Shown here: positions 61 to 29,661 of the stretch, in pieces
Layout: each line of letters starts with the position of its first letter
How positions within the stretch are numbered: the first letter of the stretch is position 1
From: an uncultured Erysipelotrichaceae bacterium
GTDB taxonomy: Bacteria > Bacillota_I > Bacilli_A > RF39 > UBA660
Length of the DNA: 35,263 nucleotides
NCBI GenBank assembly: GCA_902783185.1
Contig: CACZPQ010000010.1
Location: 1-35,263 of the forward strand
Direction: 5' to 3'
The notes under the pieces: model-generated
What the model was told of the DNA's origin: nothing
The model's input: only the letters and a program-made list of their open reading frames with translations
Databases searched by the model: none
Position numbers and translations under genes: made by a program

Positions 61-1248
61 ATGAAAAGATTACAAGATATGGAAGTAGATAATAAAACGG
101 TTATTGTTAGATGTGATTTTAATGTTCCTATAAAAGATAATCAAATAATAGATGATTATAAGATAGTTAAATCATTAGATACTATTAAGTATTTATTAGA
201 TAGAAATTGTAAAATTGTATTATTATCACATTTAGGAAAAGTTAAAACTGAAGAAGATAAAAATAATAATAGCCTAGAGATAGTAGCAAGAAGATTAAAA
301 ACATTATTAAATACTAATGTAATTTTTTCAAGAGTAATAAGAAATGAAGCATTGAATCAAAAGATTAAAACATTACAACCTAAAAGTATTATTCTTTTAG
401 AAAATACAAGATTTATGGATGTACCTAATAAACAAGAAAGCAATTGTGATGATGATTTGTCTAAGTATTTTGCTAGTTTAGGTGATATATTTGTTATGGA
501 TGCTTTTGGATCATCACATAGACGTCATGCATCAACTTATGGAATAACTAAATACATTCCTAGTTGTATTGGTTTATTAGTTCAAAATGAAATAGATAAT
601 ATAAATAAATATGTTATTAATGCAGAACATCCATTTACTATTGTAATGGGTGGAGCTAAGATTGATGATAAGTTAGAATTAATGGTTGAATTACTACCTA
701 AGTGTGATTATATGCTACTAACTGGTGGCCTTGCAAATACATGCTTAAAAGTACTAGGATTCAATGTTGGTAATTCTATATGTTCTAAAGATGATGCTGT
801 CCTTGCTGTGGTTAAAGAAATGTTAGTTACTTATAGAGATAAGATTACACTTCCATATGATGTAATTGTAACTAATACTTATAGTGATAATTATATAGAT
901 CAAAAGAATGTTGATGAAATTGATTCTAATGAAGAAATTAAAGATATAGGTGGAACAACGCTTAGTAATTACGCTAAAGTAATAAATCAATCTAAGACTA
1001 TATTTGTTAATGGTACTGCTGGAGTATATGAAGATAATAGATTTGCTAATGGTACTAAAGAATTATTAAGAATTATTTCTTTATCTCCTGCTGATGTAGT
1101 AGTTGGTGGTGGAGATGCAGCATCTGCAGCTAGAACTTTAGGTTATTCAAACTCATTTAAGTTTATATCTACTGGTGGTGGTGCTACATTAGATTATATT
1201 ATTAATCATAAGATGGCCATTGAAGATAATGATGTTGAAGTATTATAA
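61..1248 (+). CDS. pgk: phosphoglycerate kinase (divergent)
   Basis: Glycolytic kinase interconverting 1,3-bisphosphoglycerate + ADP and 3-phosphoglycerate + ATP in the cytoplasm. The 395-residue length is normal. Visible family motifs are RCDFNVP (17-23), SHLGK (56-60), LLENTRF, DAFGSSHRRHAS, MGGAKIDDK, VVGGGD and STGGGATLD. The start is set at ATG 61, not ATG 49, because 49 lies upstream of the predicted transcription start and GGTG at 51-54 is well spaced for 61. Oddities: two substrate-binding Args of the family are Lys here (K34 in DDYKI, normally DDTRI; K60 in HLGKV, normally HLGRP), and the usual WNGPMGVFE loop reads VNGTAGVYE. It may be a diverged or secondary PGK; activity cannot be judged from sequence. 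It is transcribed alone, ending in a terminator. Confidence 0.9.
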   Translation: MKRLQDMEVDNKTVIVRCDFNVPIKDNQIIDDYKIVKSLDTIKYLLDRNCKIVLLSHLGKVKTEEDKNNNSLEIVARRLKTLLNTNVIFSRVIRNEALNQKIKTLQPKSIILLENTRFMDVPNKQESNCDDDLSKYFASLGDIFVMDAFGSSHRRHASTYGITKYIPSCIGLLVQNEIDNINKYVINAEHPFTIVMGGAKIDDKLELMVELLPKCDYMLLTGGLANTCLKVLGFNVGNSICSKDDAVLAVVKEMLVTYRDKITLPYDVIVTNTYSDNYIDQKNVDEIDSNEEIKDIGGTTLSNYAKVINQSKTIFVNGTAGVYEDNRFANGTKELLRIISLSPADVVVGGGDAASAARTLGYSNSFKFISTGGGATLDYIINHKMAIEDNDVEVL

Positions 1249-1281: not shown

Positions 1282-1310
1282 TATACATTATATTTCATAA
1301 GTTTACATTA

Positions 1311-1317
1311 TTCGACA
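1311..1317 (-). promoter_or_regulatory. 0A box (Spo0A binding site) upstream of spo0A
   Basis: TTCGACA on the + strand is the reverse complement of TGTCGAA, an exact match to the Spo0A consensus TGNCGAA. It lies about 44 bp before the -10 at 1361 in a region otherwise almost free of C and G. The recognition helix of the Spo0A encoded just downstream is conserved, so autoregulation is a reasonable inference. Confidence 0.6.
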
Positions 1318-1337
1318 CTATCTAACATAATAATTTC

Positions 1338-1366
1338 TTTTAATTTGTCTAATTAGATAATATAAT
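1338..1366 (+). promoter_or_regulatory. spo0A promoter
   Basis: A perfect -10 TATAAT is at 1361-1366, with only a weak T-rich -35 around 1338-1344. A weak -35 with an upstream 0A box would fit an activated promoter, but that is inference. Confidence 0.45.
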
Positions 1367-1410
1367 AGATTTGTGCTGTAAAAATAAAAAAGAATAGAGG
1401 AGACTAGAAA

Positions 1411-2178
1411 ATGATTAATTTACTTATGGTAGATAATGATGAATCTACCATTAAAGAAGTTAAGCAGTATTTTAGTAGTATAAGCAGTATCAATATTAAA
1501 AAAGTATGCAAAGATGGAAAAGATGCATGTGATGAATTAATTAAAAATAGTAATGGATATGATGTTATTTTACTTAATCCTGTACTACCAACTATTGATG
1601 GCATTGGTGTTTTAAAATTAATGGAAGAAAATAATATAAATACTAAAGTAATTATATATGCTGATTATAATAATCCTAATATGGTTAAATCTTTATATCA
1701 GTTTGATATATCATTTTATCTATTAAAGAGTATAGATAAATCTATATTAAAAGAAAGAATAGAAGATTCAATTGAAATTAATTATAAAGAATATGAATTA
1801 TTAGATAACAGCATAAATAAGAAGATTAGTAAACTATTACATGATTTAGGTATGCCATCACATATTAAAGGTTATCAATATATAAGAGATTCTATTATAT
1901 TAATGCATGAAAATCCAGCATACTTTGGAAGCATAACAAAACAATTATATCCAGAAATTGCTAAAAAGTATGATACAACAGCTTCACGTGTTGAAAGAGC
2001 AATTCGCCATGCTATTGAAGTTAGTTGGTCAAGAGGAGATTATGATTTAATGGATGAAATATTTGGCCATTCAGTAGATTTTGATAGAGCTAAACCAACA
2101 AATTCAGAGTTTTTGGCAACATTGGCTGACAGAATAAATTTAGATGAGAGTAGGTATAAGTTAAGAAATTATAATTAA
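1411..2178 (+). CDS. spo0A: Spo0A-type transcription factor with Asn at the phosphoacceptor site
   Basis: Orthologue of the sporulation/stationary-phase master regulator: receiver domain (about 1-125), short linker, Spo0A C-terminal DNA-binding domain (about 132-250). The recognition region TTASRVERAIRHAIEV (189-204) followed by SWSRG matches Bacillus Spo0A almost residue for residue, as do HIKGYQYIR, GSITKQLYP and KPTNSEF. The receiver is degenerate. The phosphoacceptor Asp is Asn56 (codon AAT at 1576-1578, in VILLNPVLP), the acidic pair is D8-N9, the conserved Thr/Ser is Ala84 and the Pro after Lys106 is Ser107. Normal phosphorelay activation is therefore unlikely. The gene stands alone with its own promoter, a GAGGAG ribosome site, an upstream 0A box and a terminator. 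Family assignment is certain; the mode of control is inferred. Confidence 0.95.
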   Translation: MINLLMVDNDESTIKEVKQYFSSISSINIKKVCKDGKDACDELIKNSNGYDVILLNPVLPTIDGIGVLKLMEENNINTKVIIYADYNNPNMVKSLYQFDISFYLLKSIDKSILKERIEDSIEINYKEYELLDNSINKKISKLLHDLGMPSHIKGYQYIRDSIILMHENPAYFGSITKQLYPEIAKKYDTTASRVERAIRHAIEVSWSRGDYDLMDEIFGHSVDFDRAKPTNSEFLATLADRINLDESRYKLRNYN

Positions 2179-2247: not shown

Positions 2248-3753
2248 ATGAAAAATGTATTATTAATTGTATTAGATGGATTTGGTATACGAAATGATGA
2301 AAAAGGCAATGCAATAAAGAATGCTGATATGCCAACATTTAATAAACTTTGGGATGAATATCCTCATTCATTACTTGAAGCCTCAGGTAGAGCAGTTGGT
2401 TTAACAAAAGGACAAATGGGAAATTCAGAGATTGGCCATCTTTCAATTGGAGCTGGACGATTAATTAAGCAAAACATTACTCAAATAGATGATATGTTTA
2501 ATAATAATGAATTAAAAGATAATGAAGTATATAAAGAAATGGTTGATTATGCAAGAGTTAATCATAAACCTATACATTTAATGGCTTTAATATCTGATGG
2601 TGGAATTCATTCTCATATTAAGTTTGTATTAAATATGATAGATAAATTATATGAAGATAAAGTTAATGAGGTATACGTTCATGCAATTACTGATGGTCGG
2701 GATACTGATGTTCATTCTGCATATAAGTATATAAAACAAGTTGAGGATAAGTTGGTTGAATATAAATTAGGGCATGTTGTATCAGTATGTGGTAGGTACT
2801 ATGCCATGGATAGGGATAAAAAATGGGATAGAACTAAGTATTATTCTGATATGGTTACCATGGGTAAAGGTGTTAAAATTAAAAATATAGAAGAAGCAAT
2901 TAATATATGTTATAAAAAAGATATTACTGATGAATTTTTACCACCATTATTATTAGATGAAAAACATATAATTAAAGATAAGGATGTTTTACTATGGTTT
3001 AATTTTAGACCAGATAGAGCTAAACAAATACTTGAAGTATTAACTAATCCTAGATTTATTGAGTATCCTGTTGAACTATTACCTAAATTAAAGGTTTATA
3101 CTATATATAAGATTAATGAAGCAATAAATAGTAAAAATTTAATTAATCATATTGATGTTAATAATTCATTTGGTGAATACATATCAAGTCTTGGTTTAAA
3201 ACAAGCAAGAATTGCCGAAACAGAAAAGTATGCACATGTTACATATTTCTTTGATGGTGGTAGGGAATTAGAATTACCTGAATGTGATAGATTTTTAATA
3301 CCATCTCCAAAAGTAGCTACATATGATTTAAAACCAGAAATGTCATCTGTTGGTATTACGAAGCAAGTAATTAGATGTTTAAATGATAATTATGATTTTA
3401 TTTTAGTTAATTTTGCAAATCCTGATATGGTTGGTCATACTGGAAATTATGATGCAACACTTAAGGCTTTAGAGGCAGTAGATAATGCTCTTAGTACAAT
3501 AATGGAATATGCTGAAGAAAATTTTTATACTGTTGTTATAACAGCAGATCATGGAAATGCTGATTACATGTATGATGATAAAGGTACAATAATAACTACT
3601 CATTCAACTAGTCCTGTACCATTTATAATTACAGATAAGAAATTAAAATTAAAAGATGGTTCAATAACTAATATTGCACCAACACTATTAAAATATATGG
3701 ATATTAAGATACCAGATGAAATGAAAGATAGTGATATTTTAATAGATAATTAA
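2248..3753 (+). CDS. gpmI: 2,3-bisphosphoglycerate-independent phosphoglycerate mutase
   Basis: Converts 3-phosphoglycerate to 2-phosphoglycerate in glycolysis using a phosphoserine intermediate and Mn(II) ions; alkaline phosphatase superfamily. The 501-residue length is close to the family's usual ~510. Metal-binding Asp10 is in VLDGFG and the catalytic Ser60 in GQMGNSEIGH. The insert carries AITDGRDTD and GRYYAMDRDKKWDR, and the C-terminal metal sites are TADHGNADYM and THSTSPVPF. The start is ATG 2248, because the in-frame GTG at 2239 overlaps the AGGTG ribosome site. It lies two genes from pgk, but the intervening spo0A has its own signals, so this is not a classical glycolytic operon. 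Confidence 0.97.
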   Translation: MKNVLLIVLDGFGIRNDEKGNAIKNADMPTFNKLWDEYPHSLLEASGRAVGLTKGQMGNSEIGHLSIGAGRLIKQNITQIDDMFNNNELKDNEVYKEMVDYARVNHKPIHLMALISDGGIHSHIKFVLNMIDKLYEDKVNEVYVHAITDGRDTDVHSAYKYIKQVEDKLVEYKLGHVVSVCGRYYAMDRDKKWDRTKYYSDMVTMGKGVKIKNIEEAINICYKKDITDEFLPPLLLDEKHIIKDKDVLLWFNFRPDRAKQILEVLTNPRFIEYPVELLPKLKVYTIYKINEAINSKNLINHIDVNNSFGEYISSLGLKQARIAETEKYAHVTYFFDGGRELELPECDRFLIPSPKVATYDLKPEMSSVGITKQVIRCLNDNYDFILVNFANPDMVGHTGNYDATLKALEAVDNALSTIMEYAEENFYTVVITADHGNADYMYDDKGTIITTHSTSPVPFIITDKKLKLKDGSITNIAPTLLKYMDIKIPDEMKDSDILIDN

Positions 3754-3826: not shown

Positions 3827-5617
3827 ATGATATCAACGTATTTTTTTATAATAATAAGTATGGTTTATAACATTATATTATGTTATTTATTCTTTCATAA
3901 AACTAGAGTTAAGTCACCTGAAATAAGAATATTTGGATGGTTATTAGTTACTAATTTTATTGGTTTATTCTTAGAATTATATAACAGATTTAGTATAATT
4001 ACATTAGGAGCTGATAATGTATTTATACCTTATACTAGTAAATTATATTTATTATATTATATTGTTTATATAGTACTATTTTTTAAATATTTCTTAGCTA
4101 TATCTTTTTCAATTAAAAAGTATAAGAAGTATTCTATAATATTTAATATATTTAGTTTACTAGCAACTATTGGATGTGGATATATGATATATAAATTGCC
4201 TGTTATTATAAATACTGATAATGGTATTTATTTAACTGGTAATTGTGTTGAAACTGTATTTTCATTAATGAGTATTTTTTTAGTATTAATAATATTAATT
4301 TATATGATAAGGTATAGACATATTGATAAAAATAAGTATATATCTTGTTTATCATTCATGATATTAAGTTGTTTATTTGGAGTAGTACAAAAGTATTTTC
4401 CATTTATAACATTATCAACAGCTATGCAAACAGTTGTGTTATATATTATATATAATACAATTGAAAATCCAGATGTTAAAATGTTGCATCAAATTAATTT
4501 AGCTAAACTGTTAATGGAAGAAGCAAATAATAATAAGAAAGAAGCTATAAGTGATATATCTCATGATATTAGAATTCCTCTTAATTCAATAATTGGTTTT
4601 TCTGAGGATATTAAAAAATATGAAAATAAATTACCACTAGAAGTAAAAGAAGATATTAACTATATTTTAGAATCATCTAATAATATATTAGATGCTGTTG
4701 ATAGTTTAAATGATATAAAAGATATAGTAACAACTGATTTAGAACTTACATTAAAACCATATTCACTTAAAAAAGAAGTTAATCGTATAAAGAATAAATT
4801 CAAAACAGAAATTGATGACAATATTAACTTTGTTGTAAACATAGATGATAACATTCCTGAAAAATTAGTAGGTGATAAAACATATATCAGCGAGATTATT
4901 AGTAATATATTATCAATGTCATTAAAAAATACAAACAATGGTGAAATAGAACTATATGTTAAGATTGATACTAATAAAAATAAATGTAATATACTATTTA
5001 TTGTTAAAGATAGTGGTAAAGGATATAAAAAAGATGAACTATATGATTTAAGAAATATTGGTGATGATGATAATATAAAAATTGATGAAAATAATATATT
5101 ATTTGCTATTACAAAAAATTTAGTTAGTTTAATGGAAGGGAAACTTGAAATTGAATCTAAACATAATAATGGATCAACTGTTTCTATTATTATTCCTCAA
5201 GATGTTTATGTTGAAGAAAAGGATGAAGATACTGAGATTTCAATAAACTATTCTAATAAGCATATTCTTGTTGTTGATGATAATGAATTGAATATTAAAG
5301 TATTATCTAGAGCATTAAGTGACTTTAAAGTAAATATAGACTCTGTTTTATCTGGAGAAGAAGCATTAGATAAAATAGCAAAAGGAAATGAATATGATTT
5401 AATACTAATGGATATTTTAATGCCAAAACTTAGTGGAGTAGAAACATTAAATAAACTAAAAGAAGATAAAAAATTTAATACGCCAGTGGTAGCTTTAACT
5501 GCTGATGTTAATAAAGAAGCAAAAGAAAAATATCTAAGTTATGGTTTTAATGATTACATATCAAAACCATTTAGTAAGAAGGAAATAAAAATGAAGATTC
5601 ACACTTTATTTAAATAA
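3827..5617 (+). CDS. membrane hybrid histidine kinase with degenerate ATPase domain
   Basis: A 596-residue sensor protein. The N-terminal ~220 residues form about seven hydrophobic membrane segments. A HisKA domain with SHDIRIPLNS follows (His246, codon 4562-4564), then a HATPase_c-like region and a C-terminal receiver with LVVDDNELN, phosphoacceptor Asp529 in LILMDILMP, ALTAD and SKPF, all intact. In the ATPase domain the G1 box DSGKG (395-399) is kept. The N box has Asn360, but the second, Mg-coordinating Asn position is Met364 (NILSMSLK). The G2 box GxGLGL is absent, with NNILFAITKNL in its place. ATP use is therefore doubtful; it could be a phosphatase, a phosphotransfer scaffold or a pseudokinase. 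ATG 3827 is chosen because upstream starts lie in the promoter. No HPt domain is visible. The partner may be the nearby Spo0A, but that protein lacks an acceptor Asp. Confidence 0.88.
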   Translation: MISTYFFIIISMVYNIILCYLFFHKTRVKSPEIRIFGWLLVTNFIGLFLELYNRFSIITLGADNVFIPYTSKLYLLYYIVYIVLFFKYFLAISFSIKKYKKYSIIFNIFSLLATIGCGYMIYKLPVIINTDNGIYLTGNCVETVFSLMSIFLVLIILIYMIRYRHIDKNKYISCLSFMILSCLFGVVQKYFPFITLSTAMQTVVLYIIYNTIENPDVKMLHQINLAKLLMEEANNNKKEAISDISHDIRIPLNSIIGFSEDIKKYENKLPLEVKEDINYILESSNNILDAVDSLNDIKDIVTTDLELTLKPYSLKKEVNRIKNKFKTEIDDNINFVVNIDDNIPEKLVGDKTYISEIISNILSMSLKNTNNGEIELYVKIDTNKNKCNILFIVKDSGKGYKKDELYDLRNIGDDDNIKIDENNILFAITKNLVSLMEGKLEIESKHNNGSTVSIIIPQDVYVEEKDEDTEISINYSNKHILVVDDNELNIKVLSRALSDFKVNIDSVLSGEEALDKIAKGNEYDLILMDILMPKLSGVETLNKLKEDKKFNTPVVALTADVNKEAKEKYLSYGFNDYISKPFSKKEIKMKIHTLFK

Positions 5618-24313: not shown

Positions 24314-24985
24314 ATGAACAATAATTTAGAAACAATTACAAATCTATTTGAAAAAAAAGAAATAAGAAGTGTGTGGGATAGTGAAAAAGAAGACTATTAT
24401 TTTAGTGTAGTTGATGTAATAAGTGCTTTAACAGATGCTAGTATTCCTAGAAATTATTGGAGTGATTTAAAGAGAAAAATAAAAAAGGAAGGTAGTGAGT
24501 TGCACGAAAATATCGTGCAACTAAAACTAAAATCTAATAAAGATGGGAAGTATTATTTAACAGATGTATTGGATACTGAAGGAATACTAAGATTAATTGA
24601 GAGTGTTCCATCACCTAAAGCAGAACCATTTAAATTATGGTTGGCACATCTTGGAAAAGATAGAATAGATGAAGTATTTGATCCAACTATAGCTATAGAA
24701 AGATCAATTAATTATTATCGTAATAAGGGTTATGATGATTCTTGGATAGAAAATAGAATAAGAACAATAATACATAGAAAACAATTAACTGATGTATGGA
24801 AAGAACATGGTGTTAATACACCAAAAGAATATGCAATGCTAACAAATGAAATATATAAATGTTGGTCAAAAATGAATGCTAAAAATTATAAAGATTATAA
24901 AGGATTAAGAAAGGAAAATTTAAGAGATAATATGAGTGATTTGGAACTATTATTAACTGATATTGGTGAAGTAACAATAATATAA
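24314..24985 (+). CDS. BRO/DinD-like phage antirepressor family protein, truncated by frameshift
   Basis: 223 residues as read. The N-terminal half (KKEIRSVWDSEKEDYYFSVV, VISALTDASIPRNYWSDL, IVQLKLKSNKDGKYYLTDVL) is a BRO-N-type domain. The middle part FDPTIAIERSINYYRNKGYD, WIENRIRTIIHRKQLTDVW and SDLELLLTDIGE is characteristic of chromosomal BRO/DinD-like proteins. The frame stops at 24983-24985 just where the family's C-terminal segment should begin; that segment follows in another frame. A perfect 10-pair inverted repeat (24498-24522) lies inside the gene. The family is typical of prophages and mobile regions, and the gene begins an accessory cassette with the DUF3800 gene. Confidence 0.85.
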   Translation: MNNNLETITNLFEKKEIRSVWDSEKEDYYFSVVDVISALTDASIPRNYWSDLKRKIKKEGSELHENIVQLKLKSNKDGKYYLTDVLDTEGILRLIESVPSPKAEPFKLWLAHLGKDRIDEVFDPTIAIERSINYYRNKGYDDSWIENRIRTIIHRKQLTDVWKEHGVNTPKEYAMLTNEIYKCWSKMNAKNYKDYKGLRKENLRDNMSDLELLLTDIGEVTII

Positions 24986-25162: not shown

Positions 25163-25837
25163 ATGAAAGAAATAAGCTTATTTATAGATGAATCAGGTAA
25201 TTTAGGATCTCAAGGTAGATTTTTCTTAATTTGTGCCTTAGAAGTACAATGCATAAAATCTAAAACGGTGTCAAGAAGAGTGGCAAGAACTATAAATAAG
25301 TTTAAGAAAAGAAAATTAATTCCAAAAAGTAAAGAATTGAAAGGTTGGAGTATTAAAGAAGATGATAGATTTGAATTAATTACAAAAATACTATCTAAAG
25401 ATATAAAAGTTAGATATATAGTATTAGATAAAGATAAAACAACAATACTACTTAAAAAGGCAGATGATAAAAATGCTTGTTATAACTATTTAGTACAATT
25501 AATAATTAAGAAGATTATTAAAACATATACTGATTTAGAAAAAATAAATATTTATTTAGACAATAGATCAGTTAAAATTGGTAATAGACTATCTTTAAAA
25601 CCATATCTTTATAATAAATTAATTCTCGAACAATTGGAAAGAAAAGATAATGTTAAAAGAGTAGAGTTTGAAATAAACTATTTAGAATCTGAAAGTTGTT
25701 TTTTAATACAATGTGCTGATATAATATCTAATTCTTTATTTAAAAAGTATAATAGCAATAATAATGTTTTTTATAAAGTAATAAGACCCTATATAGTATT
25801 TGAAAGTAAATTTCCATCAAAAAACTTTGGAAAATAA
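25163..25837 (+). CDS. DUF3800 family protein
   Basis: 224 residues. The N-terminal SLFIDESGNLG (about 5-15) with Asp9-Glu10-Ser11 is the DUF3800 hallmark. Also seen are RYIVLDKDKT, the second acidic strand IYLDNRS (about 132-138) and the late helix QCADIISNSLF. The fold is believed to be RNase H-like with an acidic catalytic set, and members occur in phages, islands and near defence genes; biochemical function here is unknown. It probably shares a transcript with the broken BRO-like gene. Confidence 0.85.
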   Translation: MKEISLFIDESGNLGSQGRFFLICALEVQCIKSKTVSRRVARTINKFKKRKLIPKSKELKGWSIKEDDRFELITKILSKDIKVRYIVLDKDKTTILLKKADDKNACYNYLVQLIIKKIIKTYTDLEKINIYLDNRSVKIGNRLSLKPYLYNKLILEQLERKDNVKRVEFEINYLESESCFLIQCADIISNSLFKKYNSNNNVFYKVIRPYIVFESKFPSKNFGK

Positions 25838-26238: not shown

Positions 26239-27285
26239 ATGAAAGAAAAAATTGAAGAAATTAAAAAGTCTTTGGAAAGTGATATTAAAAATGCTAATAC
26301 ATTACAAGATATAGTTGATTTAAAAGCTAAATATATTGGTAAATCAGGATGTATTACGGAACTAACTAAAAATATGAAAGATATTCCTGAGGAAGAAAGA
26401 AAACAAGTTGGTTCTTTAGCAAATGTAATTAAAAATGAAGCTAATGAATTAATTAGTAATAAAGAAAATGAAATTAATACAATTATTATTAATGAAAAAC
26501 TTGCTAAAGAGGCAGTAGATATTTCACTTCCAGCAACTGAAATTCCAATTGGATCACCTAATATTTTAGAAAAAGTTATCGAAGATTTTGAAGAAGTATT
26601 TATGTCTATGGGATATGATGTTGTTGATGGTCCTGAACTTGAAGAAGATAGATTTAACTTTGAGTTACTTGGATTACCAAAAGGACATCCAGCTAGAGAT
26701 GCACAAGATACTTTCTATGTTAAGGGAGATGAACTATTATTGCGTTCACATACGTCTCCTGTTCAAGCAAGAACAATGCTTGCTAAAGGTGGAAATGAGC
26801 CAGTAAGAGTTATATGCCCTGGTAAAGCATACAGAAGAGATGATGATGATGCAACTCATTCACATAATTTTACTCAAATTGAAGGTTTAATTGTAGATAA
26901 GAATATAAAATTATCCGATTTAAAGGGAACTGTAACTGTTATATGTAAGAAATTATTTGGTAATGATACTATAACAAGATTTAGACCATCATATTATCAG
27001 TTTACTGAACCATCAGTAGAAATGGATATTTCATGTTTTAGTTGTAAAGGAAAAGGATGTAATATTTGTAAAAATACTGGATGGATTACTATAGGTGGAG
27101 CGGGAGTAGTTCATTATGATGTATTAAAAGGTTGTGGTTATGACCCAGAAAAATGGAGTGGTTTTGCATTTGGTTTTGGTGCTGAAAGATGTGCAATGTT
27201 AAAATATGGAATTAGTGATATTAGAACTTTTTATAATACTGATTTAAGAGAAACTAAACCATTTGATAGAAAAGAGGAAGATTAA
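26239..27285 (+). CDS. pheS: phenylalanyl-tRNA synthetase alpha subunit
   Basis: 348 residues; class II catalytic subunit of the alpha2beta2 enzyme that charges tRNA-Phe. An N-terminal coiled coil (about 1-85) binds tRNA. Motif 2 is around VICPGKAYRRDDDDATHSH, the Cys-rich insert is CFSCKGKGCNICKNTGW, and motif 3 is GFAFGFGAERCAMLKYGI. The start is ATG 26239 after GAAAGGA; the longer frame from 26170 runs back into the T-box and is rejected. pheT follows after one base. Confidence 0.98.
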   Translation: MKEKIEEIKKSLESDIKNANTLQDIVDLKAKYIGKSGCITELTKNMKDIPEEERKQVGSLANVIKNEANELISNKENEINTIIINEKLAKEAVDISLPATEIPIGSPNILEKVIEDFEEVFMSMGYDVVDGPELEEDRFNFELLGLPKGHPARDAQDTFYVKGDELLLRSHTSPVQARTMLAKGGNEPVRVICPGKAYRRDDDDATHSHNFTQIEGLIVDKNIKLSDLKGTVTVICKKLFGNDTITRFRPSYYQFTEPSVEMDISCFSCKGKGCNICKNTGWITIGGAGVVHYDVLKGCGYDPEKWSGFAFGFGAERCAMLKYGISDIRTFYNTDLRETKPFDRKEED

Positions 27286-27286
27286 T

Positions 27287-27727
27287 ATGATATCAATGAA
27301 TTGGGTTAAAGATTATATTGATTTAACTGGAATTGATTTAATAGAATTAGCTGATAAGATAACTAGAGCAGGCATTAATATTGAAAATGTCATTTCTAAT
27401 CATATTAATAATTTAGTTGTTGGTGAAGTTATTGACTGTATAGATCATCCTGATTCTGATCACTTACATATATGTAAGGTAAATGTTGGTTCAGAAACTA
27501 AACAAATAGTATGTGGTGCACCAAATGTAAGAGCAGGTATAAAAGTAATTGTTGCATTACCTGGTGCCATTTTACCTGGTGATTTTGAAATCAAATCAGG
27601 CAAAATCAGAGGTGAAGAGTCAGATGGTATGATATGTGCCCTATTTGAACTTGGATTAGAAGAAAAACTGATGAAAACTATGCTAAAGGTATTGAAGAAC
27701 TACCAAGTGATGCTCCAGTTGGAGTAA
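27287..27727 (+). CDS. pheT: phenylalanyl-tRNA synthetase beta subunit, upstream part (frameshifted)
   Basis: The first ~126 residues are a normal PheT N-terminus: SMNWVKDYIDLTG, then the EMAP/Myf-type tRNA-binding domain with VVGEVIDCIDHPDSDHLHIC, GAPNVRAG and VALPGAILPG. After ELGLEEK (about nt 27667) the frame departs from the family and stops at 27727. The missing continuation is found one frame over: TDENYAKGIEELPSDAPVGV. One extra A in the A5 run at 27663-27667 would restore a single ~790-residue protein. ATG 27287 follows GAGGAAG. Confidence 0.85.
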   Translation: MISMNWVKDYIDLTGIDLIELADKITRAGINIENVISNHINNLVVGEVIDCIDHPDSDHLHICKVNVGSETKQIVCGAPNVRAGIKVIVALPGAILPGDFEIKSGKIRGEESDGMICALFELGLEEKLMKTMLKVLKNYQVMLQLE

Positions 27728-29661
27728 ATGCATTGGAGTATTTGGGTAGGGATGATACCTTATATGAATTAGATGTTCATAAACATAGAAATAATGACTG
27801 TTACTATCATATTGGATTTGCTCATGAAGTAGGTACAGTACTTGGTAAAAAAGTAAAATATCCAGAAAGTAAATATAGTGAAAGTAATGATGATGTTAAT
27901 AATTATATAAAACTAGAAGTTGATACAAATAGATGTCCATTTTATTTAGGTAAAATGGTCAAAAATGTTAAAATTGGAGAGTCACCTGATTGGATTAAAA
28001 AAAGAATAATCTCAGCAGGTATGAGACCTATTAATAATGTTGTTGATATATCAAATTTTGTAATGCTAGAGTTTGGACAACCAACACATTTCTTTGATGC
28101 TGATAAGTTAGGTAATGTTGTTAAGGTTAGAGATGCCCTAAATAGTGAAACTATAACTACATTAGATGGACAAGAAAGACAATTAACTGAAAATGATATT
28201 GTAATTACTGATGGTAAAGTTCCAACATGCATTGCTGGTATAATGGGTGGAGAAACTGTTGAAGTAGATGAAAATACTAAAAACATATTTATTGAAGCTG
28301 CAATATTTGATGCTTTTTCAACTACTAAAACAGCAACTAGATTAAATTTAAAATCTGAGGCATCTAAAAGATATGGCAAAGGACTTAATTATGAATATAC
28401 AATTATGGCCATGGATAGATGTTGTTCACTTCTTGAAGAATATGCATCAGGTGAAGTATTAAAGGGACAATTACTACATGATAAAGTTGATAAAACACCA
28501 AAAACTGTTGATGTTACAACTGAGGATTTAAATGGTGTTCTTGGTATGCATATGAGTGATGATGATGTTAAGACTCAATTGGAAAAGTTAGATTTTGAAT
28601 ATGAACTAAGTGGTAATGTATTTCATATAACAATTCCAAGAAGAAGATTAGATGTTGAACCTAATAAAGCAGATATTGCTGAAGAAATAGGTAGATTATA
28701 TGGATATAATAATCTTGAAGATACTTTACCTGAAGTTGAAACAAAACGTGGAGTTTATGTTGGTGATGTAGCTTTAAGAAAATCAATATCTAAACGTTTA
28801 AGAATGCTTGGACTAAATGAAGATAGAAATTACACATTAGTTACACCAAGTATGGCTTCTTCATTTAATTATGATAACAAAGAAGTTTTAGAGCTACCTA
28901 ATCCAATGTCTATAGATAAATCAACATTAAGATTATCATTAATTCCTTCATTAATTCAAACTTATGAATATAATAAAGCTAGAAAAGTAAACGATATTAA
29001 TATTTATGAGATTGCTAAAACATATGATAATAACTATGTTGAAGATCACAAAGTTGCAATGTTAATGAAAGGTAATTATATAATTAATAATGCTAATAAG
29101 GTCAATGTTAAAGATGATTTCTTTGTATTAAAAGGAATTATTGAAAACTTATTTAAATATTTAGGATTCAAAAATAGATATTCTTTTGAAAAAGTTGAAG
29201 TAAAAGAGTTACATCCAGGTATATCTGCATCTATTCTTATAGATAGAAAGCCAATAGGTATTATAGGAAAAGTACATCCAACATTGGTTAAAGATGATGT
29301 ATATGTTGCTGAAATATCTATGACTAAATTATATGAATTTAATATTAAGCCATTAAAATTTAAAGAAGCATCTAAATATCCTGAAATAACAAAAGATATG
29401 GCCTTCATAGTAAAAAAAGATATTACTGCTGGACAAATAATAGATGTAATTAAAAAAAGTGGTGGTAGATTATTAACTGATATTGATATATTCGATGTTT
29501 ATACTGGTGAAAATGTAGCTAATGACGAAAAATCTATTGCGTTTAAATTAACATTTAATGAACCAACTAGAACATTAAATGATGATGAAGTAATGGAAGT
29601 ATTTAATAATATAATTAATAATGTAATAAAGGAATTTAATGCAATATTAAGAGATAAATAA
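27664..29661 (+). CDS. pheT: phenylalanyl-tRNA synthetase beta subunit, downstream part (frameshifted)
   Basis: Continues PheT in the shifted frame. It begins KTDENYAKGIEELPSDAPVG and reads ALEYLGRDDTLYELDV (B1 end), the B3/4 editing domain (MRPINNVVDISNFVMLEFGQ, PTHFFDADKL, CIAGIMGG), the B5 domain (IPRRRLDVEPNKADIAEEIG), the catalytic-like core and a C-terminal FDX-ACB anticodon-binding domain (FNEPTRTLNDDEV). No start codon with a ribosome site is seen at the junction; the first candidate in this frame is a TTG at 27733. PheT is essential, so either the indel is an assembly error or the parts are translated separately. Confidence 0.85.
   Translation, partial: KTDENYAKGIEELPSDAPVGVNALEYLGRDDTLYELDVHKHRNNDCYYHIGFAHEVGTVLGKKVKYPESKYSESNDDVNNYIKLEVDTNRCPFYLGKMVKNVKIGESPDWIKKRIISAGMRPINNVVDISNFVMLEFGQPTHFFDADKLGNVVKVRDALNSETITTLDGQERQLTENDIVITDGKVPTCIAGIMGGETVEVDENTKNIFIEAAIFDAFSTTKTATRLNLKSEASKRYGKGLNYEYTIMAMDRCCSLLEEYASGEVLKGQLLHDKVDKTPKTVDVTTEDLNGVLGMHMSDDDVKTQLEKLDFEYELSGNVFHITIPRRRLDVEPNKADIAEEIGRLYGYNNLEDTLPEVETKRGVYVGDVALRKSISKRLRMLGLNEDRNYTLVTPSMASSFNYDNKEVLELPNPMSIDKSTLRLSLIPSLIQTYEYNKARKVNDINIYEIAKTYDNNYVEDHKVAMLMKGNYIINNANKVNVKDDFFVLKGIIENLFKYLGFKNRYSFEKVEVKELHPGISASILIDRKPIGIIGKVHPTLVKDDVYVAEISMTKLYEFNIKPLKFKEASKYPEITKDMAFIVKKDITAGQIIDVIKKSGGRLLTDIDIFDVYTGENVANDEKSIAFKLTFNEPTRTLNDDEVMEVFNNIINNVIKEFNAILRDK

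Follow-up and report, generated by a model that had tools for sequence, protein, structure and literature searches.

An aspartate-less receiver in the sole Spo0A of an uncultured Erysipelotrichaceae bacterium

Phosphorylation of Spo0A is regarded as the point at which endospore formation is universally decided, and work on how the sporulation pathway has been remodelled describes different routes to Spo0A~P, never its absence (PMC6136694). The window considered here, a stretch of 35,263 nucleotides analysed as a whole (contig CACZPQ010000010.1 of an uncultured Erysipelotrichaceae bacterium), encodes a Spo0A-like protein in which asparagine occupies the position of the phosphoacceptor aspartate. 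The question raised by this locus is whether the protein is truly Spo0A and, if it is, whether it may still direct sporulation. The features of the locus are collected in Table 1. The open reading frame and the four sites first named in the initial annotation (Asn9, Asn56, Ala84 and Lys106-Ser107) were all correct when the sequence was re-read.

Table 1. Features of the spo0A locus; positions are those of the window
Feature	Position	Strand	Basis or remark
pgk	61..1248	+	conserved upstream neighbour; locus marker without part in function
Candidate second promoter TTTACA-18-CATAAT, 0A box in spacer	1302..1331	+	10/12 matches; such sites no more frequent than chance
Perfect 0A box TGTCGAA	1311..1317	-	94 bp upstream of ATG
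TATAAT, candidate -10 of the promoter nearest spo0A	1361..1366	+	conserved by eye in genus promoters, without statistical support
Shine-Dalgarno-like AGAGGAG	1396..1402	+	sequence
spo0A orthologue (255 aa), aspartate-less receiver	1411..2178	+	TIGR02875 215 bits; PF00072 + PF08769
Receiver domain (aa 3-120), eroded phosphorylation pocket	1417..1770	+	PF00072 58 bits
Codon 9, Asn, second pocket acid lost	1435..1437	+	Ser in other genus members
Codon 56, AAT, Asn at phosphoacceptor position	1576..1578	+	followed by Pro57
Codon 84, Ala at switch Thr/Ser position	1660..1662	+	Ser in other genus members
Codons 106-107, Lys106 retained, next Pro replaced by Ser107	1726..1731	+	
Spo0A_C DNA-binding domain (aa 139-242)	1825..2136	+	PF08769 139.6 bits
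Recognition-helix region (aa 188-210)	1972..2040	+	87% identity to B. subtilis
gpmI	2248..3753	+	conserved downstream neighbour; locus marker

The protein passes the cut-off of the NCBI Spo0A equivalog spore_0_A (215 versus 200 bits), and its Pfam matches, Response_reg and Spo0A_C, give the architecture of a receiver joined to a DNA-binding domain. The gene order pgk-spo0A-gpmI is kept throughout the family, which identifies the window gene as the spo0A orthologue; as judged from its sequence and locus, the protein is Spo0A by descent. A single Spo0A_C match is present in the whole genome (1.1 Mb in 107 contigs, completeness 90.7%), so that there is no sign of a second copy, which, with an intact Asp, would by the initial annotation have refuted its own reading. 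Identity to B. subtilis Spo0A is 55% over the DNA-binding domain, 87% in the recognition-helix region and 19% in the receiver, so that the description of the DNA-binding half as almost identical to that of Bacillus holds for the recognition helix and not for the domain overall. Tandem Spo0A duplicates are found in genomes G005 and G032 (L045:3697-5364 and L018:607-2304), and in one of the G005 copies the second pocket acid is Asn.

The receiver motifs read MVDNDE, where one acid of the pair is gone, ILLNPVLP (Asn56), IYADY (Ala84) and LLKSID, where Lys106 is no longer followed by Pro. The pocket residues retained are Asp8 and Lys106. By its residues (Asp8/Asn9, Asn56, Ala84, Lys106-Ser107) this is no phosphorylation-activated response regulator, and with no Asp56, one pocket acid left and no Thr/Ser switch, standard receiver chemistry is predicted to be impossible. 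The domain as a whole appears well formed. An AlphaFold2 model gives a (beta-alpha)5 fold, mostly with pLDDT >90, that Foldseek matches to the Spo0A receivers 1qmp and 5wq0 (TM 0.87-0.90 over the target). A Pfam receiver with this predicted fold and Asn56 in place of Asp is an aspartate-less receiver (ALR) by definition.

The protein thus described shares with B. subtilis Spo0A the receiver and Spo0A_C domains, the recognition helix, a single gene copy and 0A boxes in front of both spo0A and sigF, but lacks the phosphoacceptor Asp, the second acid, the switch Thr/Ser and the Pro after Lys. Among characterised ALR regulators, RitR and ChxR likewise keep the receiver fold while replacing Asp with Asn (RitR) or Glu (ChxR), together with further pocket changes, and RitR functions with Asn at the phosphoacceptor site (PMC4395418). 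They differ from the window protein in its Spo0A_C output and predicted control of sporulation. No ALR-Spo0A was found in the main text of PMC4395418, and no report of a Spo0A lacking this Asp was found in the literature searched.

Spo0A proteins from other genera of the family (Bacilli metagenome-assembled genomes including Ca. Aphodocola) share the locus, the DNA-binding domain and the 0A-box promoter with the window gene, but nearly always keep the canonical D-D / D / T-S / K-P pocket. A fully canonical pocket is present in 74 of 81 Spo0A proteins (80 named loci of relatives); five of the seven non-standard pockets belong to the window clade, and the other two have the second acid alone changed. 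All five genomes of the genus have replaced the second pocket acid with Asn or Ser, and Pro107 with Ser or Asp. Codon 56 is AAT in the window genome and in two other species, G002 (JAFUTV010000020, from roe deer reticulum) and G003 (CAMUZS010000002), and GAT/GAC in G004/G001, which are 99% identical to each other and count as one lineage. The genus sample therefore amounts to four independent lineages, three of which share Asn56, and all of the evidence is sequence from uncultured metagenome-assembled genomes. In the sister genus g42 (three genomes) Asp56 is kept, the acid pair is shortened, and Lys is followed by Asn or Asp.

Whether Asn56 is fixed among related genomes was a check proposed in the initial annotation; G001/G004 and g42, with Asp56, show that it is not. 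The initial annotation had suggested that relatives with Asp at this position would point to a sequencing error; such relatives exist, but the pockets of the nearest ones are broken too, which indicates evolutionary polarity and not an error. Since these Asp56 relatives, too, have lost the second acid and the Pro that follows Lys106, the pocket broke first and the change from Asp to Asn followed. The break goes back to the common ancestor of the genus and g42, and Asp was replaced by Asn later, probably once. The Asn56 lineages group together in the Spo0A tree (support 81) and show no clear grouping in a concatenated tree of neighbouring genes (supports 65-76). A separate receiver erosion is seen in G028 (L066:3669-4475), a genome that has SpoIVA: the Asp remains there, while the pocket Lys is gone and the acid pair is partly lost.

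The receiver has diverged strongly from the family consensus (identity 0.36, against a median of 0.67). Within the genus, receiver identity is 0.63-0.65 at a DNA-binding-domain identity of 0.83-0.87, while phosphorylatable relatives at matched DNA-binding-domain divergence have mean receiver identities of 0.59-0.61. The genus receivers are no less conserved than these, and relaxed selection on the receiver was not seen in this matched comparison. Among the genus lineages receiver dN is 0.22-0.29 and dS 0.73-1.02, giving a dN/dS of roughly 0.25-0.4 with dS near saturation. On these sequence comparisons a sharp change in the receiver on the stem branch was followed by constraint, a pattern more in keeping with an altered role than with decay. 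The earlier proposal that several signalling residues were lost from an intact gene still apparently selected for DNA binding is borne out by the status of the gene as the sole spo0A and by Asn56 in three of the four lineages.

Of the 139 distinct spo0A promoters in the family, 109 have a perfect 0A box within 250 bp upstream, compared with 2.5 expected; most of these boxes lie some 100 bp ahead of the gene and share one orientation. The box is at a similar position in four of the five genus genomes; G002 and G045 (the g42 genome examined) have a one-mismatch version instead of a perfect box. The sequence TTTTGTCGAA was found again 5' of sigF in the window genome (G000), G002, G003 and G045. 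This sigF box precedes a conserved -10-like TATATT by ~30 bp, and in the window genome it is the only such box within 16 kb. No 0A box was found at spoIIGA. The 87% identity of the recognition-helix region, together with the boxes at spo0A and sigF, predicts that Spo0A-type binding to 0A boxes is kept. The gene had been credited with its own promoter and terminator. The promoter is supported by the conserved 0A box, although promoter-like hexamers are no commoner than in shuffled sequence; a search of 1200-2400 gave no terminator-like site.

Spo0A is accompanied in the window genome by the full sporulation sigma cascade. SigF, SigE, SigG, SigK, SpoIIGA, SpoIVA (636 bits), SpoVAC/AD/AE, YqfD and CotZ are all encoded, and as several sporulation matches fall below the strict NCBI equivalog cut-offs, here and family-wide, the names rest also on the gene orders SpoIIGA-SigE and SigF-SpoVAC-AD-AE. 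Absence of the spore sigma factors, raised in the initial annotation as something to look for, is therefore rejected, and its suggestion of a use other than classical sporulation is not upheld: with the cascade, SpoIVA and the other genes kept, and a conserved 0A box at sigF, there is no indication that the protein serves a non-sporulation role. Spore formation with altered regulation and reduced spoIIAB/spoIIE has been predicted for RF39 (PMC10868615). Neither spoIIAA nor spoIIAB was found upstream of sigF in the window genome, and the sole PP2C match is a membrane protein that fuses SpoIIE-type PP2C and HATPase domains (L104:1-1803, G000:C6). SpoIIIAE (PF09546) gave no match in any family genome searched, though other sporulation genes are present.

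Besides Spo0A, four proteins of the window genome carry a receiver, giving five in all: a member of a PhoB-like pair, an HPt-receiver protein and two hybrid kinases. The HPt-receiver protein is intact in all five genus genomes, which, with the two hybrid kinases here, argues that the phosphotransfer machinery has not vanished. In G041 an HPt-receiver gene (L020:94-918) is directly upstream of spo0A, making it a candidate substitute for Spo0F/Spo0B in the family; as a universal Spo0A partner it is unsupported, since G038 has a canonical Spo0A and no HPt-receiver match. One of the hybrid kinases is encoded two genes downstream of spo0A (3827-5617) and is 39% identical to the other; its H-box (SHDIRIP) and G2 box appear degenerate while its own receiver is intact. 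The idea of a cognate partner encoded at a conserved locus was rejected for this kinase, which is absent from that position in other genus genomes and elsewhere.

The explanation we favour, with some reserve, is that this sole Spo0A, carrying an ALR receiver, continues to direct sporulation with no need of phosphorylation; how active it is would depend on its amount and on autoregulation, and perhaps on contacts made by the receiver. Spo0A would bind 0A boxes phosphate-free, and sporulation would be switched on mainly by the amount of protein, with autoregulation through the box in the spo0A promoter and activation of sigF through its own box upstream of the -10-like element. The folded, conserved receiver may dimerise or bind a partner, by analogy with characterised ALR regulators, and control by phosphorylation would probably have been lost in the ancestor of the genus and sister genus, before Asp gave way to Asn. 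Points that weigh against this explanation are the retained HPt-receiver protein and hybrid kinases, the imperfect spo0A boxes of G002 and G045, the sample of four lineages from metagenome assemblies, the unclear grouping of the Asn56 lineages in the neighbour-gene tree and a dS near saturation. A precedent for Spo0A action independent of phosphorylation is B. subtilis sad67, which turns on early sporulation genes and allows sporulation when a second signal is supplied (PMC4689505); that is a laboratory allele, whereas the window protein has a natural receiver, kept whole but re-evolved. It is a more tentative thought that the lineage has a natural phosphorylation-independent sporulation switch in which His-Asp phosphotransfer is bypassed, the receiver senses a partner, a metabolite or its own concentration, and the HPt-receiver relay is rewired elsewhere.

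Early decay, in which a lineage losing sporulation has shed its receiver input first and would lose the rest of the pathway next, seems unlikely. Multiple losses of sporulation have been described in these orders (PMC10868615), and within the family SpoIVA and SigE-like genes are absent from G009, G037, G040, G042 and G047, several of which have shrunken Spo0A relics; but the four genus lineages, at a Spo0A identity of about 70-75%, retain SpoIVA and SigE, with constraint on both the receiver and the DNA-binding domain, and 0A boxes at sigF are still perfect. The relics, Spo0A-derived proteins near pgk in relatives without SpoIVA (G063, G061, G040, G059 and G009; L070:3901-4386, L071:4007-4477, L072:4293-4952, L077:4366-4923 and L069:4005-4724), in some cases lack most of the receiver and all have an altered recognition helix, possibly reflecting non-spore reuse. 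That relatives without spore genes keep such proteins at the same locus means that non-spore roles are possible in the family, and reassignment of the window Spo0A to, for example, metabolic or envelope control could be imagined. The full sigma cascade and the sigF box, and a recognition helix unchanged here and altered in the relics, make this improbable.

Persisting phosphorylation, at another residue or after deamidation of Asn56 to Asp, is somewhat less probable again. Reversion of Asn to Asp is known in one receiver (PMC4395418). Asp8 and Lys106 are still in place, but the pocket has also lost its second acid, its switch residue and the Pro next to Lys106. Deamidation is slow where Asn precedes Pro, as in Asn56-Pro57, which counts against that route. 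An error at codon 56 would need a single base (G to A) to separate AAT from GAT, and errors may exist in the window, where pheT (27263-29661) is apparently split into two open reading frames around 27727-27733 by a frameshift or assembly error; but Asn56 recurs in two independent assemblies of other species and four other pocket positions are altered, and a sequencing error is thereby refuted.

Should the favoured reading be true, a sigma cascade and 0A boxes combined with a Spo0A lacking the phosphorylation site would mean that the sporulation decision can move off phosphotransfer. The sequences examined suggest that a small group of uncultured gut Bacilli may switch on sporulation in a manner not previously described, and the sister species with Asp56 and Asn56 form a natural series on how a receiver changes its input. 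Elsewhere in the window, a phage-antirepressor (Bro-N)-like open reading frame (24314-24985) and a DUF3800-like one (25163-25837), both recognised by eye, lie amid housekeeping genes.
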